From positions 1 to 64,000 of the forward strand of contig JAFUCJ010000008.1 in assembly GCA_017459705.1 (NCBI GenBank): a DNA stretch of 64,000 nucleotides, in the 5' to 3' direction. Source of the DNA: Candidatus Saccharimonadota bacterium (GTDB taxonomy: Bacteria > Patescibacteriota > Saccharimonadia > Saccharimonadales > Saccharimonadaceae). Position numbers and translations under genes: made by a program. Shown here piece by piece: positions 9,322 through 58,893 of this stretch. Every line of letters begins with the position of its first letter. Position 1 is the stretch's first letter. The notes beneath the pieces are model-generated. The model was not told the origin of the DNA, did no database searches, and was given only the letters and a program-made list of their open reading frames with translations.

Positions 9322-11118
9322 ATGCCTCGCATTAGGATACTAAAATACATTACCCTCGGCCTGCTCGGCATTATTGCCGTGCGGCTGTTTTTTATCCAAA
9401 TCATCGAGCACGACGCTTGGGTGGCAAAGGCGAGCGAGCAGCACACTATGCTCGAAACCATCACGGCGAAGCGCGGCGAGATTTACATGATGGATCATGG
9501 CGAGCCGGTGGCGGTGGTCATGAACCAGACCACCTACCAGGTCATCATCGATCCGGCCATCACCCCTCGCGACAAGCTTCAATCCACCCTTGACAAATAC
9601 GCAAAAGATTATATAACTGCAAACCTTGATGAAGTTTATGCTATCGAGGGGCTTCGTTACTACGTTGTCGCCAAAAACGTCCCGTATTCCGCCGCCACCA
9701 AAATCGCTGCCGAGGGGCTTAGTAGTGTCTGGTTGAAAGAAGGCAACAGTCGTGTTTACCCCGAAGGCGAAATGGCCTCCACGGTTCTCGGTTTTGTCAA
9801 TGCCGACGGTCTCGGGCAGTACGGCGTCGAAGGCTCGCTTAATCACATCCTGACCGGCAAAGATGGGCTACTCAGAACCATCTCCGACGTCAACAACGTC
9901 GCTCTCTCTATCGGCGACGACAACGTCAAGATTCCCGCCGAGGATGGACAGAGCGTTGTCTTATCTATTGACCGCGGCCTCGAAAAAGGCACCGAGGAAC
10001 GCATCGCCGCCGCTCTTGAACATAGCGAGGCTACCAACGCGGCAGTTCTCATCATGAATCCAAATACCGGCGAAGTCGTCGCGATGACCGCCTTGCCAAA
10101 TTACGACCCTGCCCACTACGGCAACGTCAAAGACGCCTCGGCCTATATCAATCAAGTCACCGAGGTTCCATACGAACCTGCCTCGATTTGCAAAAACTTC
10201 GCCTACTCCGCCGCTATCAACGAGGGTAAAATGACTCCCGACACCACCTATTTCAACGAACATTACGTCTATGTCGACGGGTGGAAAATCGACAACGCCC
10301 AGATGAATAGTTTTCTCTACGGCGAAATCGACATGCGTACGGCGCTCTACTGGTCACTCAACTCTGGCTCGATTCAGGCGTTAAAGTTTCTTGGCGACGA
10401 CCCAGCAAGTATCAATCAAAAGGGGAGGGAATTACTTTTCGACTATTATTACAATAAGTTCCAGTTAGGACACAACACAGGTATCGAGCTCATCGAAGCT
10501 GAGGGCTTCATACCCGACCCCAACGAGGGCTGGGGTCGCGACTCAACCTATGCCAACATGACTTTCGGGCAAAATCTCGGTATCACTATGATTCAGACCG
10601 CACGGGCTTTCTCCGCAGTAGTCAACGGCGGCTACCTTTATACCCCCACGGTCGTGAAAGGTGTCTTAAAGGACGGCGAAATCGTCGCATTGGATACTGC
10701 ACCGACGGGTGACGCCGCTTGGGGGACCCCCACGTCAGCGCGAGTGGGGGAAGATGCGGCGGCAGGACCCGTCGGCGAGCGTATCTTGACTGAGCAGACT
10801 TCCGCCACTATGCGTTCTATGCTCATCAATAACCGCGATTATAAGGTTCGCGCCGGTATCGACCGTTTTGGCTATGCCGTCGGCGGCAAATCTGGTACCG
10901 CTCAGGTCGTGAGAGGTGGCGCCTACGACGATACTTTTGCGGAGTTAGTCGGTTCTTACATGGGCTTCGTCGGTCCTGCCGGTGAATTGCCGCGCTATGT
11001 TGTCATGGTCAAGATGTGGGGCGAAGGCAAAAGCGTCGGCTCTGGCGACGCCATGGATCTCTTCGATTCATTGCAAAATTATCTCATCGACTACTACAAG
11101 ATTAAACCCAATCTATGA
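9322..11118 (+). CDS. ftsI: Penicillin-binding protein FtsI (septal transpeptidase)
   Basis: 598 aa class B PBP. One N-terminal membrane helix (about residues 8-25) is followed by the dimerisation domain and a transpeptidase domain with Ser288 in SICK (SxxK), S345-L-N (SxN) and K523-S-G (KTG-type). It cross-links septal murein and works with FtsW encoded downstream. TATAAT (9309-9314) ends 7 bases before the ATG, so the mRNA should be leaderless. Residues about 461-485 (GDAAWGTPTSARVGEDAAAG) are encoded by a 74-bp palindromic repeat that also occurs twice in topA. It lies on a surface segment ahead of the KSG motif. Confidence 0.96.
   Translation: MPRIRILKYITLGLLGIIAVRLFFIQIIEHDAWVAKASEQHTMLETITAKRGEIYMMDHGEPVAVVMNQTTYQVIIDPAITPRDKLQSTLDKYAKDYITANLDEVYAIEGLRYYVVAKNVPYSAATKIAAEGLSSVWLKEGNSRVYPEGEMASTVLGFVNADGLGQYGVEGSLNHILTGKDGLLRTISDVNNVALSIGDDNVKIPAEDGQSVVLSIDRGLEKGTEERIAAALEHSEATNAAVLIMNPNTGEVVAMTALPNYDPAHYGNVKDASAYINQVTEVPYEPASICKNFAYSAAINEGKMTPDTTYFNEHYVYVDGWKIDNAQMNSFLYGEIDMRTALYWSLNSGSIQALKFLGDDPASINQKGRELLFDYYYNKFQLGHNTGIELIEAEGFIPDPNEGWGRDSTYANMTFGQNLGITMIQTARAFSAVVNGGYLYTPTVVKGVLKDGEIVALDTAPTGDAAWGTPTSARVGEDAAAGPVGERILTEQTSATMRSMLINNRDYKVRAGIDRFGYAVGGKSGTAQVVRGGAYDDTFAELVGSYMGFVGPAGELPRYVVMVKMWGEGKSVGSGDAMDLFDSLQNYLIDYYKIKPNL
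10702..10775. repeat. 74-bp palindromic element, copy 1 (inside ftsI)
   Basis: The outer arms CCGACGGGT and ACCCGTCGG are exactly complementary. Inside are GCCGC/GCGGC and CCCCCAC/GTGGGGG. The same element lies at 55836-55909 and 56796-56869 in topA. Relative to the topA copies, paired positions change together (C-G to T-A, A-T to G-C, C-G to T-A), so the fold is maintained. It is in frame and translated. Confidence 0.85.
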
Positions 11119-54907: not shown

Positions 54908-57460
54908 CTATTTCTGGGCGCTAGACTTTTTGGTGGTCGTAGCTTTCTTGCTACTTCCCTTGGCGACACTCGCCTTTTTCGCGGTACTAGTAGCTTTGCC
55001 ACGTCCGCCCCGTACTCTTCGCCGCGTTTTGGCGGCAGTTTTTGGCTTGTTTTCGAGCATTTCGCGCGCCTGCGCCTCGGTGATGGTCTTCGGATCTAGA
55101 TCCTTGGGTACTTTTACGTTATTGCGTCGCCCCGGCCCTTTGACATACGGACCGTACGCACCATTAATAATTTGTATCTCACCCCAGTCGGCAATCATCG
55201 AGTCAATCTTTCTCTGATATAGGGGCAACACGTCTTCCAGCGTCACGGTGTACGGGTCGAAATCTTTCATTGGAATATTATACTTGCCGCCTTTCAGGTA
55301 TGGCCCGAAAGGTCCATTGGCCGCAATCAACTCGGTCCCATCTGCCGCTTTCCCGAGCGTTCGCGGTAAAGCCGGCAGGGCTAATTGTTTTAGTGCGTGC
55401 TCTAGCGTAACCGTCTTGACTGATTTTCGCTTCGGTAGCGGTGCGAAACGTGGCTTCTCGCCGCATTCTTTTTCGTTATCGCCGAGCTGGATGAAGCCGC
55501 CATTTTTGCCCACTTTGGCATAGATTGGCTTCCCTGTCTCAGGATCATGCCCGAGGAGCCGCGCATTGTTATATCGCTCGACGCCATTAGCCATCAGTAC
55601 CGTATCGTGGAATGGTCCATAGAAATCTCTCAGCATCTTGACACGTTCCAACTTTGCGTCGGCCACTAGGTCGAGGTCCTTCTCGATATTCGCGGTAAAC
55701 TTATAGTCGACAATGTTCTTAAAATTATCCGTGAGAAACCCCGCGACTAACTCGCCAATCGGCGTTGGTATGAGTTTGCCCTTATTAGCGCCATGCTTCT
55801 CCTTGACGACGCTGCGAGTAATGGTAGTGGTCGCATCGGCGGGTGACGTCGCTTGGGGGACCCCCGCGCCCGCGTGCGTGGGGGAAGATGCGACGGCAGG
55901 ACCCGCCGAGGCTAAGATTGGCTCGACACTTAGTTCTACCACTTCGCGCTCTTCCCCCTCGCTCTCGCCCTTGACGACATACCCGCGCGCCTGGATCGCC
56001 GACATAATCGAGGCATAAGTAGACGGTCGCCCGATGCCGAGTTCTTCCAGTTTTTTTACCAACGAACCCTCGGTATATCTTGCCGGTGGCTTTGCGAAGT
56101 TCTGCCGTGCCGTCAAACTAAGGTAGTCTAGCGGGTCACCCTTCGCGACTTTCGGCAACTGTAAATCTTTCGAGTTGCCATATACTTTTAGAAAACCGTC
56201 AAATATCACCACTTCGCCTTTCGCGACGAATGTGTCGGCAGATTCTGTCGGTTCATGAACCGCGCCGATACGAATCGTGGTTTTTGCGACTCTGGCATTT
56301 GCCATCTGTGTTGCCACTGTGCGTGCCCAAATCAACTGGTACAACCGCTTCTCATAATCATTTTTTCCGGCCACCATGCGTCGCACGTCAGTCGGGCGAA
56401 TCGCCTCGTGAGCTTCCTGCGCCGAGGCATCTTTCGTCTTGAAATGGCGTGTTTTCAGATATTCGTCACCAAATTCGCTCTTGATGAACCCCGCAATTGC
56501 CCCTATCGCCTGCGAAGATAGGTTGAGCGAGTCGGTACGGTGATAGGTGATCAGACCAGCCTGATACAACCCCTGCGCCGCGCTCATCGTCGTCCGCGAC
56601 GAGAAACCGAGTTTCGCATTGGCTTCAATCTGCAACGCCGCCGTCGTGAAAGGCACCGGATTAGACTTCGTCCCCTCAGCCTCCTCCACTTCCGTCACCA
56701 CAAACTCCGCCCCCGCCAATCTTTCTAGTAAAGTTTTGGCCGCCTGCTCGTCTTGGGGGGCTTCGCCATCGTAGGCGGCCGAGAATTTGCATTCATCGGC
56801 GGGTGACGTCGCTTGGGGGACCCCCGCGCCCGCGTGCGTGGGGGAAGATGCGACGGCAGGACCCGCCGAGGAAATAGATTTTGCGGCAAACATCCCAGTC
56901 ACCTTAAAAGACGATTTGCTTTCAAATTTCTCGATATCCTTCTCTCGCTCTACTACTAGCCGGAGCGCCGGACTCTGCACACGTCCCGCGCTAATCGCCC
57001 CTGGCACCTTGCGCCTCACTATATCCGACAAATCATACCCCACTAGCATATCTAGTGTCTGCCTTGCCTGCTGGCTCGACACCATATTCATATCCACCGT
57101 GCGAGGATTTTTGATGGCGTTTTCTAGTGCTGGTTTTGTAATCTCGTGAAAAGTAATCCGCGCGGTGTCTTTCGGTAGCTTCAATACTTCCGTGAGGTGC
57201 CAAGATATCGATTCGCCCTCGCGATCCTCATCGGTTGCGAGCCATACGCGCTCCGCCGCCTTAGCTTCCTTTTTTAGTTCCGCAATAATCTGCTTGTGGC
57301 CCGGGTCTATCTCATAAGTCACATCGAAAGTCGACTTATCTACTTTGGTATCTTTCCGGATGTGCCCTACGCTCGCTAGCACCTTGAAATCACTTCCGAG
57401 GTACTTCTCTATCGTATGTGCCTTTGCGGGGCTCTCCACAATCACTAGATTTTTAGACAT
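54908..57460 (-). CDS. topA: DNA topoisomerase I with two palindromic insertions
   Basis: 850 aa. It relaxes negative supercoils. TOPRIM domain (VIVESPAKAHTIEKYLG, LATDEDREGESI), active-site Tyr in LITYHRTDSL (about residue 310), then C-terminal repeats of the Topo_C type (GPYLKGGKYNIP, GPYVKGPGRRNNV) and a Lys/Ala-rich tail instead of zinc fingers. Two stretches, residues about 197-222 and 517-542, are the same 24-residue peptide (SAGPAVASSPTHAGAG..) encoded by identical 78-bp palindromic repeats. Both lie in loops outside the active site. Confidence 0.95.
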   Translation of the reverse strand: MSKNLVIVESPAKAHTIEKYLGSDFKVLASVGHIRKDTKVDKSTFDVTYEIDPGHKQIIAELKKEAKAAERVWLATDEDREGESISWHLTEVLKLPKDTARITFHEITKPALENAIKNPRTVDMNMVSSQQARQTLDMLVGYDLSDIVRRKVPGAISAGRVQSPALRLVVEREKDIEKFESKSSFKVTGMFAAKSISSAGPAVASSPTHAGAGVPQATSPADECKFSAAYDGEAPQDEQAAKTLLERLAGAEFVVTEVEEAEGTKSNPVPFTTAALQIEANAKLGFSSRTTMSAAQGLYQAGLITYHRTDSLNLSSQAIGAIAGFIKSEFGDEYLKTRHFKTKDASAQEAHEAIRPTDVRRMVAGKNDYEKRLYQLIWARTVATQMANARVAKTTIRIGAVHEPTESADTFVAKGEVVIFDGFLKVYGNSKDLQLPKVAKGDPLDYLSLTARQNFAKPPARYTEGSLVKKLEELGIGRPSTYASIMSAIQARGYVVKGESEGEEREVVELSVEPILASAGPAVASSPTHAGAGVPQATSPADATTTITRSVVKEKHGANKGKLIPTPIGELVAGFLTDNFKNIVDYKFTANIEKDLDLVADAKLERVKMLRDFYGPFHDTVLMANGVERYNNARLLGHDPETGKPIYAKVGKNGGFIQLGDNEKECGEKPRFAPLPKRKSVKTVTLEHALKQLALPALPRTLGKAADGTELIAANGPFGPYLKGGKYNIPMKDFDPYTVTLEDVLPLYQRKIDSMIADWGEIQIINGAYGPYVKGPGRRNNVKVPKDLDPKTITEAQAREMLENKPKTAAKTRRRVRGGRGKATSTAKKASVAKGSSKKATTTKKSSAQK
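55834..55911. repeat. Palindromic element, copy 2 (inside topA)
   Basis: 78 bases identical to 56794-56871; the palindromic core is 55836-55909, with arms TCGGCGGGT and ACCCGCCGA. Nested GTCGC/GCGAC and CCCCCGCGC/GCGTGGGGG-type pairings. In frame, on the strand opposite to the ftsI reading. Confidence 0.9.
56794..56871. repeat. Palindromic element, copy 3 (inside topA)
   Basis: Identical over 78 bases to 55834-55911, core 56796-56869. Identity implies a recent duplication or gene conversion within topA. A 78-base unit is 26 codons, so insertion keeps the reading frame. Confidence 0.9.
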
Positions 57461-57496: not shown

Positions 57497-57539
57497 AAAA
57501 AGAGCTCAGGTATGGGTGGGCACTACCTGAGCTCTTTTT
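57497..57539 (-). terminator. Strong hairpin terminator
   Basis: AAAAAGAGCTCAGGTA (57497-57512) pairs exactly with TACCTGAGCTCTTTTT (57524-57539), 16 bp with an 11-base loop. T-runs on both strands make it bidirectional; it lies about 35 bases before the topA start on the same strand, insulating topA from the RNA gene. Confidence 0.9.
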
Positions 57540-57803
57540 GGCCCTTTAACGCTTCACTACTATACCGGGTGAACCCCGGAAGCGCGACCCACCTCACACA
57601 AAACGGGGCCCGCCGGTTAAAGGGATTGCTATACCTTTGAAATGATCCCTTTCTAAGTGGAGGTAATACTTATAACTCTAAACCATGAAGAAATTTAAAG
57701 CTCGAAAGGGTTTCAAAGGCACGCAATTTCTGCTATACTTATAACAGTATAGCGAAATTATAACTTATTTAGGTGCGGTGTAGGGCTTTTTGTCACCCTA
57801 ACT
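57497..57803 (-). ncRNA. Unassigned structured RNA of about 300 nt
   Basis: It starts from a perfect consensus promoter (57810-57838) and ends at a strong terminator (57497-57539). Hairpins visible on the minus strand: AATTTC-GCTATAC/GTATAGC-GAAATT (57725-57759); CCTTTGAAA/TTTCAAAGG plus CCCTTTC/GAAAGGG closing 57635-57719; CCCTTTAAC/GTTAAAGGG closing 57542-57624; CGCTTC-CGGG/CCCG-GAAGCG inside it. I see no RNase P core, SRP tetraloop region or tmRNA tRNA-like end. Lying between divergent topA and dprA, it is probably a stable, highly expressed RNA. Confidence 0.65.
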
Positions 57804-57809
57804 GTAATC

Positions 57810-57838
57810 ATTATAGCACACAGGAGAAAATATGTCAA
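57810..57838 (-). promoter_or_regulatory. Perfect consensus promoter of the structured RNA
   Basis: On the minus strand TTGACA (57833-57838), 17-base spacer, TATAAT (57810-57815). The -35 overlaps the dprA start codon, so RNA synthesis and dprA expression may interfere. A plus-strand -10 (CATTAT, 57808-57813) for dprA overlaps the minus -10. Confidence 0.85.
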
Positions 57839-58893
57839 CACTTTTTTCACACTTTTTTCAAAAAATCAACCAAATATCACCCCTAGAAGCCGATTATACA
57901 GAGGTGTTAGGCTCTATTGCGGTTATGCCTAAAACATTGTATTTTTATGGTAAAATGCCACAAAATGTGGTAAAAATGCAAAAATCCTCAACCACTCTAT
58001 CAACACAATCAGGAGATTTGTCAACCACGAAAGACCGATCACTAGCATCATCTGACAAGTCTCGTCCGAAAACCGTCGCCATCGTCGGCTCTCGCCGCAA
58101 TACCCACTATGGCGAAGAGGTCGCCTATAAGCTCGCCTACGAGCTGGGCAGGCACAACGTAGTCGTGGTGTCTGGGCTTGCGTATGGCATTGATTCAATC
58201 GGACACCAAGGCTGCCTGGACGCTGGTGGCGTCACCGTGGCGGTTCTCGGTACCCCTATCGACAAAATCTACCCAGCCGGCCACCTGAAACTCGCGGCTG
58301 AGATTATTGAAAAGGGTGGCGCCATCATCAGCGAATATCCCCCTCGTGCTGCCGCATACGAGAGCGCGCCGCTAGCTCCGGGCGAGTATATTTCTGACTC
58401 TGGTCGGCGCGAATATGACCCCAGATATTCTTTCCTGCATCGCAATCGTATTATTTCCGGACTCGCAGATATTGTCGTGGTGGTCGAGGCGGCCGAGAAA
58501 TCTGGCTCACTCAATACCGCGGCTCATGCCCTAGACCAAGGCAAAACCGTCTTTGCCGTCCCCGGCAACATTACAAGTCCATACTCCCAGGGTTGTAATA
58601 AACTTATCGCGGCGGGTGCTATCCCCTACACTTGCCCAGATGATGTCCTGCGCGAACTCTTCCCGGACGACTATGCACAAAAAATAAAACGTCACCAGCA
58701 ACTTAATCTTTTTGGCGACAATGACGTGGAGAGTAAAATCTTGCAAGCCCTTGCTGCCGGGGCGCGTTCTAGCGAGCAGATAATGGAACTGACTCATCTC
58801 CCGCCGGAAGTGTTCAACGAAGCCATCACCTTGCTCGAAATCAAATCTCGCATCCGCGCTCTCGGCATGGGCAATTGGGGGCTAATACGATAG
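57832..58893 (+). CDS. dprA: DNA processing protein DprA
   Basis: 353 aa; AGGAG lies 6 bases before the ATG. DprA loads RecA on incoming single-stranded DNA during natural transformation. The Rossmann-like core is present: VAIVGSRRNTHYGEEVAYKLAYEL, VSGLAYGIDSIGHQGCL, AVLGTPIDKIYP, FLHRNRIISGLADIVVVVEAAEKSGSLNTA and AVPGN. A C-terminal winged helix follows (about 300-353). There is an extra Ser/Thr-rich stretch near residues 52-75 and a roughly 20-residue insertion after SEYPPR. Supports competence in this organism. Confidence 0.95.
   Translation: MSTLFSHFFQKINQISPLEADYTEVLGSIAVMPKTLYFYGKMPQNVVKMQKSSTTLSTQSGDLSTTKDRSLASSDKSRPKTVAIVGSRRNTHYGEEVAYKLAYELGRHNVVVVSGLAYGIDSIGHQGCLDAGGVTVAVLGTPIDKIYPAGHLKLAAEIIEKGGAIISEYPPRAAAYESAPLAPGEYISDSGRREYDPRYSFLHRNRIISGLADIVVVVEAAEKSGSLNTAAHALDQGKTVFAVPGNITSPYSQGCNKLIAAGAIPYTCPDDVLRELFPDDYAQKIKRHQQLNLFGDNDVESKILQALAAGARSSEQIMELTHLPPEVFNEAITLLEIKSRIRALGMGNWGLIR

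Follow-up and report, generated by a model that had tools for sequence, protein, structure and literature searches.

A previously uncatalogued structured non-coding RNA class conserved across the Saccharibacteria order

A stretch of 64,000 nucleotides from a Candidatus Saccharimonadota genome (hereafter the window) carries on its minus strand an independent gene for a structured non-coding RNA of about 310 nt, which belongs to a previously uncatalogued class, is conserved across the Saccharibacteria order, and is usually present as a single copy; no transcript has been seen. Members of this class fold into a 5' hairpin, then a long stem (P1) that ends in a small hairpin bearing an ACCUCC-type loop, followed by a P2/P3 domain and, last, a terminator hairpin whose GCCCACC loop is invariant (Table 1). 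The RNA is a new class by every test that was run, and its function is unproven.

Table 1. Features of the RNA locus and its neighbours (positions in the window)
Feature	Position	Strand	Basis and remarks
Structured non-coding RNA gene	57804 to about 57493	minus	ends inferred from promoter and terminator; ~310 nt
Promoter TTGACA-17-TATAAT	57838-57810	minus	-35 at 57838-57833, -10 at 57815-57810; 12/12 match, TG ahead of the -10
P0, variable 5' hairpin	57778..57802	minus	predicted fold; 129/131 parsed homologues have a stem of 5 bp or more
Conserved single-stranded stretch GCACCUAAAUAA	57765..57776	minus	alignments
Variable hairpin	57725..57759	minus	predicted fold and alignment; 13 bp in the first-pass annotation
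P1, long irregular stem	57626..57726 (57726-57704 with 57653-57626)	minus	RNAalifold on same-genus alignment, and 41 distant homologues
Apical hairpin AAGU[AUUACCUCC]ACUU	57655..57671	minus	ACCUCC at 57664-57659; loop unpaired in predicted fold
P2, CCCUUUAAC (57624-57616) with GUUAAAGGG (57550-57542)	57542..57624	minus	encloses P3 and P4
P3, GCGGGCCC/GGGUCGCGC, one bulged base	57582..57613	minus	GGUGGG at 57593-57588 on the 3' side
Intrinsic terminator hairpin	57539-57497	minus	loop GCCCACCC at 57521-57514, complementary to GGUGGG
dprA, divergent neighbour	57832..58893	plus	Pfam PF02481
topA, downstream neighbour	54908..57460	minus	Pfam

In a first-pass annotation of the window, made from sequence alone, a perfect promoter had been claimed without a strand being given; the claim held, with all features located on the minus strand. 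Its structural claims held as well: the 9-bp helix of CCCTTTAAC with GTTAAAGGG corresponds to P2, the helix of CCTTTGAAA and CCCTTTC corresponds to P1, the 57725-57759 hairpin is present in the fold, and the terminator hairpin was confirmed (folding z = -8.7). Between 57803 and 57490 the minus strand folds at -119.2 kcal/mol versus -79.8 ± 5.6 kcal/mol in 100 shuffles (z = -7.0), and the plus strand of the region is likewise more stable than its shuffles (z = -5.9). This strand is settled as the minus strand because U-G pairs (UG in 23 cells of one P2 pair, for example) would read A-C on the other strand. The annotated lack of a good coding frame was also borne out, as no ORF longer than 42 aa overlaps the gene and the one of 42 aa lies on the opposite strand, and a protein-gene reading of the locus was thus ruled out. 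A mobile-element reading was rejected since searches of plasmids, phages, and IMG/VR did not return the RNA.

Regulatory DNA is shared between the RNA gene and dprA: the -35 hexamer abuts or overlaps the start of dprA (57832), and the ribosome binding site of dprA falls within the promoter spacer.

Helix conservation is accompanied by compensatory changes and lies well above chance. For the same-genus alignment, 70 of the 93 matching genomes (own genome included) were aligned, and 49 of these 70 sequences remained after a 90% identity filter; RNAalifold returned 54 pairs, 24 of them with changes on both sides, and the loops and joints of the RNA showed very high conservation. Across genera (47 sequences), both-sided changes were observed at 14 of the 23 pairs of P2, P3, and the terminator stem, with 99.0% of cells paired. 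These values were reached by none of 500 shuffles, and slid controls paired at 30.5-51.0%. Important to note here is that this structure was partly derived from the same 47 sequences, which favours it. P2 alone had both-sided changes at seven of nine pairs (99.5% paired), and P3 at three of eight (98.9% paired). In 41 distant homologues, the sequence of P1 changes while its pairing is kept (536/561 cells), and 11 of its 14 pairs show changes on both sides. A lack of helix conservation in relatives would have refuted the first-pass reading, and this was not the case.

A plain GUGA[GGUGGG]UCAC hairpin was considered as P3 and dropped, as one homologue (L132) carries substitutions on both strands of the GACC/GGUC pairing. 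Distant members L270-L288 have, instead of P3, a larger insert between the P2 strands, with recurring motifs, for example CUAUCCAGUAG and GGAGUUUUGG.

Homologues were found by blastn in 93 of 99 same-genus genomes, and a pattern scan of named genomes gave at least 119 stretches, nearly all titled Candidatus Saccharibacteria. Covariance model R1 matched 67 of the 294 genomes of the order. Covariance model R2 rests on 47 of 61 core sequences, chosen for diversity (five removed at 93% identity and nine by hand, mostly with extended terminators; all seeds from the same order), and matched 257 of the 294 (254 of 291 of good quality) and 104 of 122 genera. Over a phylum sample, R2 matched 31 of 379 genomes, namely 31 of the 32 order members, and none of the 347 members outside the order (0/5 from other orders of the class and 0/342 others), which leaves room for relatives more distant still. 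A few genomes carry two copies, most only one.

One contig titled Candidatus Nomurabacteria (L208, 1430-1810) has a full RNA adjoining dprA; it may be a mislabelled bin, or the RNA may have spread past Saccharibacteria, both of which are possible. A pattern match in Nocardiopsis was taken as chance, as all other motifs are absent.

The most constant parts of the RNA include two loops, whose motifs were counted in the 133 distinct sequences of a set of 135; the outside-genus part was picked among model matches and therefore leans to recognisable members. CCUCC is present in all 133 homologues, usually within a closed loop that reads ACCUCC or, in many distant members, ACCCUCC. The stem of this apical loop carries ACU on its 3' side and forms a perfect 4-nt stem in 124 of 133. 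The ACCUCC in the window RNA matches the core of the 16S anti-Shine-Dalgarno. No 16S gene was found in the own assembly, and identity of the apical loop with the organism's own anti-Shine-Dalgarno is inferred.

The second loop, GCCCACC in the terminator hairpin, is also found in 133 of 133 homologues, and its complement GGUGGG or GGGUGG occurs upstream of it in every one of them versus a mean of 14% in shuffles. According to a script, this G-rich element lies only in P3 in 99 homologues, only beside P2 in 17, and in both places in 17 (L275 was scored as P3, though it has the appearance of the joint type). We infer, with reasonable though incomplete support, a long-range pair between the terminator loop and the GGUGGG element in P3 or beside P2. 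Such a contact is favoured because the partner element can move while the loop stays constant, with the caveat that related sequences are not independent. In most members GGUGGG is also part of the P3 stem, and P3 and the long-range pair would therefore compete.

A significant match to a known Rfam class would also have refuted the first-pass reading. In the search against Rfam 15, no family reached gathering level for the window RNA, and at E values up to 10 only chance-level matches were obtained, mostly on the terminator hairpin. The same threshold gave no convincing family match at the RNA in 20 outside-genus and 20 further loci. The annotation's statement that signatures of RNase P RNA, tmRNA, SRP RNA, and 6S RNA are missing held, as none of these models matched at the RNA. 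The own genome (728,099 bases in 10 contigs, 99.87% complete) encodes RNase P RNA (RF00010) at C3:7643-7996 with 221 bits and tmRNA (RF00023) at C3:11553-11909 with 89.6 bits (weaker tmRNA matches occur elsewhere, none at the RNA), which rules out either identity. For raiA (RF03072), the best match of 10.7 bits (cut-off 101.3) lies elsewhere in the genome, and the two scans of 20 loci each yielded none at E values up to 10. Neither 6S RNA (RF00013, E ≤ 10) nor SRP RNA (small and large models, RF00169 and RF01854) was matched anywhere in the own genome; the 6S model found only 8 of 14 control genomes. This nearly complete assembly is thus one in which no SRP RNA, 6S RNA, or 16S rRNA was detected, and a missing SRP RNA, should this hold for the lineage, would be a notable finding. 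The RNA was not recognised in the literature searched, from which subscription journals were mostly missing.

The Rfam negatives and the covariation together support the first-pass reading of a new or highly diverged housekeeping RNA. The "highly diverged" part remains open for SRP and 6S RNA because neither was detected anywhere in the genome. A housekeeping role is likely and fits because conservation is order-wide and the gene mostly single-copy; expression and essentiality would be inferred.

The neighbourhood of the gene is less constant. Of 132 loci, 113 have dprA adjoining the RNA in divergent orientation; in the other 19, which retain the RNA, no dprA was found. In one of these (L112), the preceding ORF looks like a peptidyl-tRNA hydrolase (named by eye). 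For topA, the same 132 loci give 38 with the gene downstream on the RNA strand, 19 with it upstream in the opposite orientation, and 75 in which it was not found; many of the flanks were short. The RNA is not considered a leader because it persists where dprA was not found alongside, nor a topA leader because of the low number of same-strand topA loci. The window has the topA start 37 nt beyond the RNA terminator, with a weak promoter-like site ahead of it at 57498-57470. As a separate observation, the topA coding region contains two identical copies (55834-55911 and 56794-56871) of a GC-rich, partly palindromic repeat of about 78 bp, each of which is translated into about 25 aa, and a third copy at 10700-10771 is 87.5% identical. 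This repeat resembles protein-coding palindromic elements.

C-rich-loop sRNAs are among the closest known systems. Such sRNAs are known from gram-positive bacteria (e.g., RsaE/RoxS and 6C). The likeness is a conserved C-rich hairpin loop complementary to the Shine-Dalgarno sequence, and the new RNA shows this feature, with CCUCC invariant and the loop predicted to be unpaired in the window RNA. In contrast to these sRNAs, its loop caps a long stem, the RNA measures about 310 nt, and it is found order-wide; no homology has been shown.

The most likely mechanism, in our opinion, is trans-acting Shine-Dalgarno binding via the C-rich loop, a possibility that is speculative and rests on inference only, with no target or partner seen. 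Purine-rich ribosome binding sites would be bound by the loop through its anti-Shine-Dalgarno core, thereby blocking or tuning translation initiation, while the remaining fold would present the loop and stabilise the RNA. Plausible targets exist for a loop presented in this way because Shine-Dalgarno-like 4-mers precede many ORF starts in the window (22/50 versus 26/301 internal ATGs; two ATGs were allowed per ORF, and 19/50 remain with the first ATG only). Against this mechanism, covariation of the invariant apical loop with a target cannot be shown, its invariance could instead serve tertiary contacts or protein binding, and many distant members have ACCCUCC in place of ACCUCC. The complete explanation, which combines a new class, the long-range pair, and trans action on translation, is our best one, yet we would lean slightly against its being correct as a whole. 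A bolder reading, inferred and not excluded, is also possible: the anti-Shine-Dalgarno core built into a presented loop might make the RNA a global translation regulator or a decoy of the 16S tail, with the contact between the terminator loop and the G-rich element acting as a structural lock or switch.

The strongest rival is a compact stand-alone RNA or RNP core, similar to raiA or OLE, in which the C-rich loops would have no role beyond tertiary contacts or the binding of protein. This remains possible and is supported by the very high conservation in loops and joints, the likely long-range pair between loop and G-rich element, and the standard promoter and terminator. raiA is likewise a stand-alone, highly conserved RNA of about 200-300 nt with unknown biochemical function, and its conserved loop nucleotides form pseudoknots (PMC11751092). 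On the other hand, there is no raiA sequence or structure match, the new RNA was found here only in Saccharibacteria, and one would have to regard the likeness between apical loop and anti-Shine-Dalgarno as coincidence.

A diverged 6S-like or Ms1-like RNA is unlikely; its binding of RNA polymerase would be inferred. The similar size class, the stand-alone gene, the expected strong transcription, and the lack of a detected 6S RNA in the own genome speak for it. 6S RNA has the shape of one long stem with a central bubble. The new RNA, by contrast, is multi-domain with a P2/P3 core and loop motifs, and no Rfam 6S family matched it.

It is very unlikely that the RNA is the missing SRP RNA of Saccharibacteria in unrecognised form. 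The distribution is of the housekeeping type, neither SRP model matches anything in the own genome, and a related Nanosynbacter genome was reported with only two ncRNAs (PMC8830319), which we counted in favour. The AGCAG-type motif is the SRP recognition motif; this motif occurs in just 1 of 133 homologues, and no SRP model matches the RNA. A cis element, either a topA leader or attenuator or an antisense regulator of the divergent dprA, has the arrangement in the window in its favour (same-strand topA just beyond the terminator, -35 hexamer at the dprA start) but is very unlikely given the loci in which topA was not found downstream on the same strand or the RNA is retained and no dprA was found.

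The RNA is in no RNA family library tested, and its retention across an order of very small genomes indicates that it is probably important for survival. Saccharibacteria, which are tiny and live on bacterial hosts, thereby gain a concrete candidate housekeeping RNA. If the trans-acting reading is true, this lineage would use a stand-alone anti-Shine-Dalgarno loop for translation control, an idea that is now testable.
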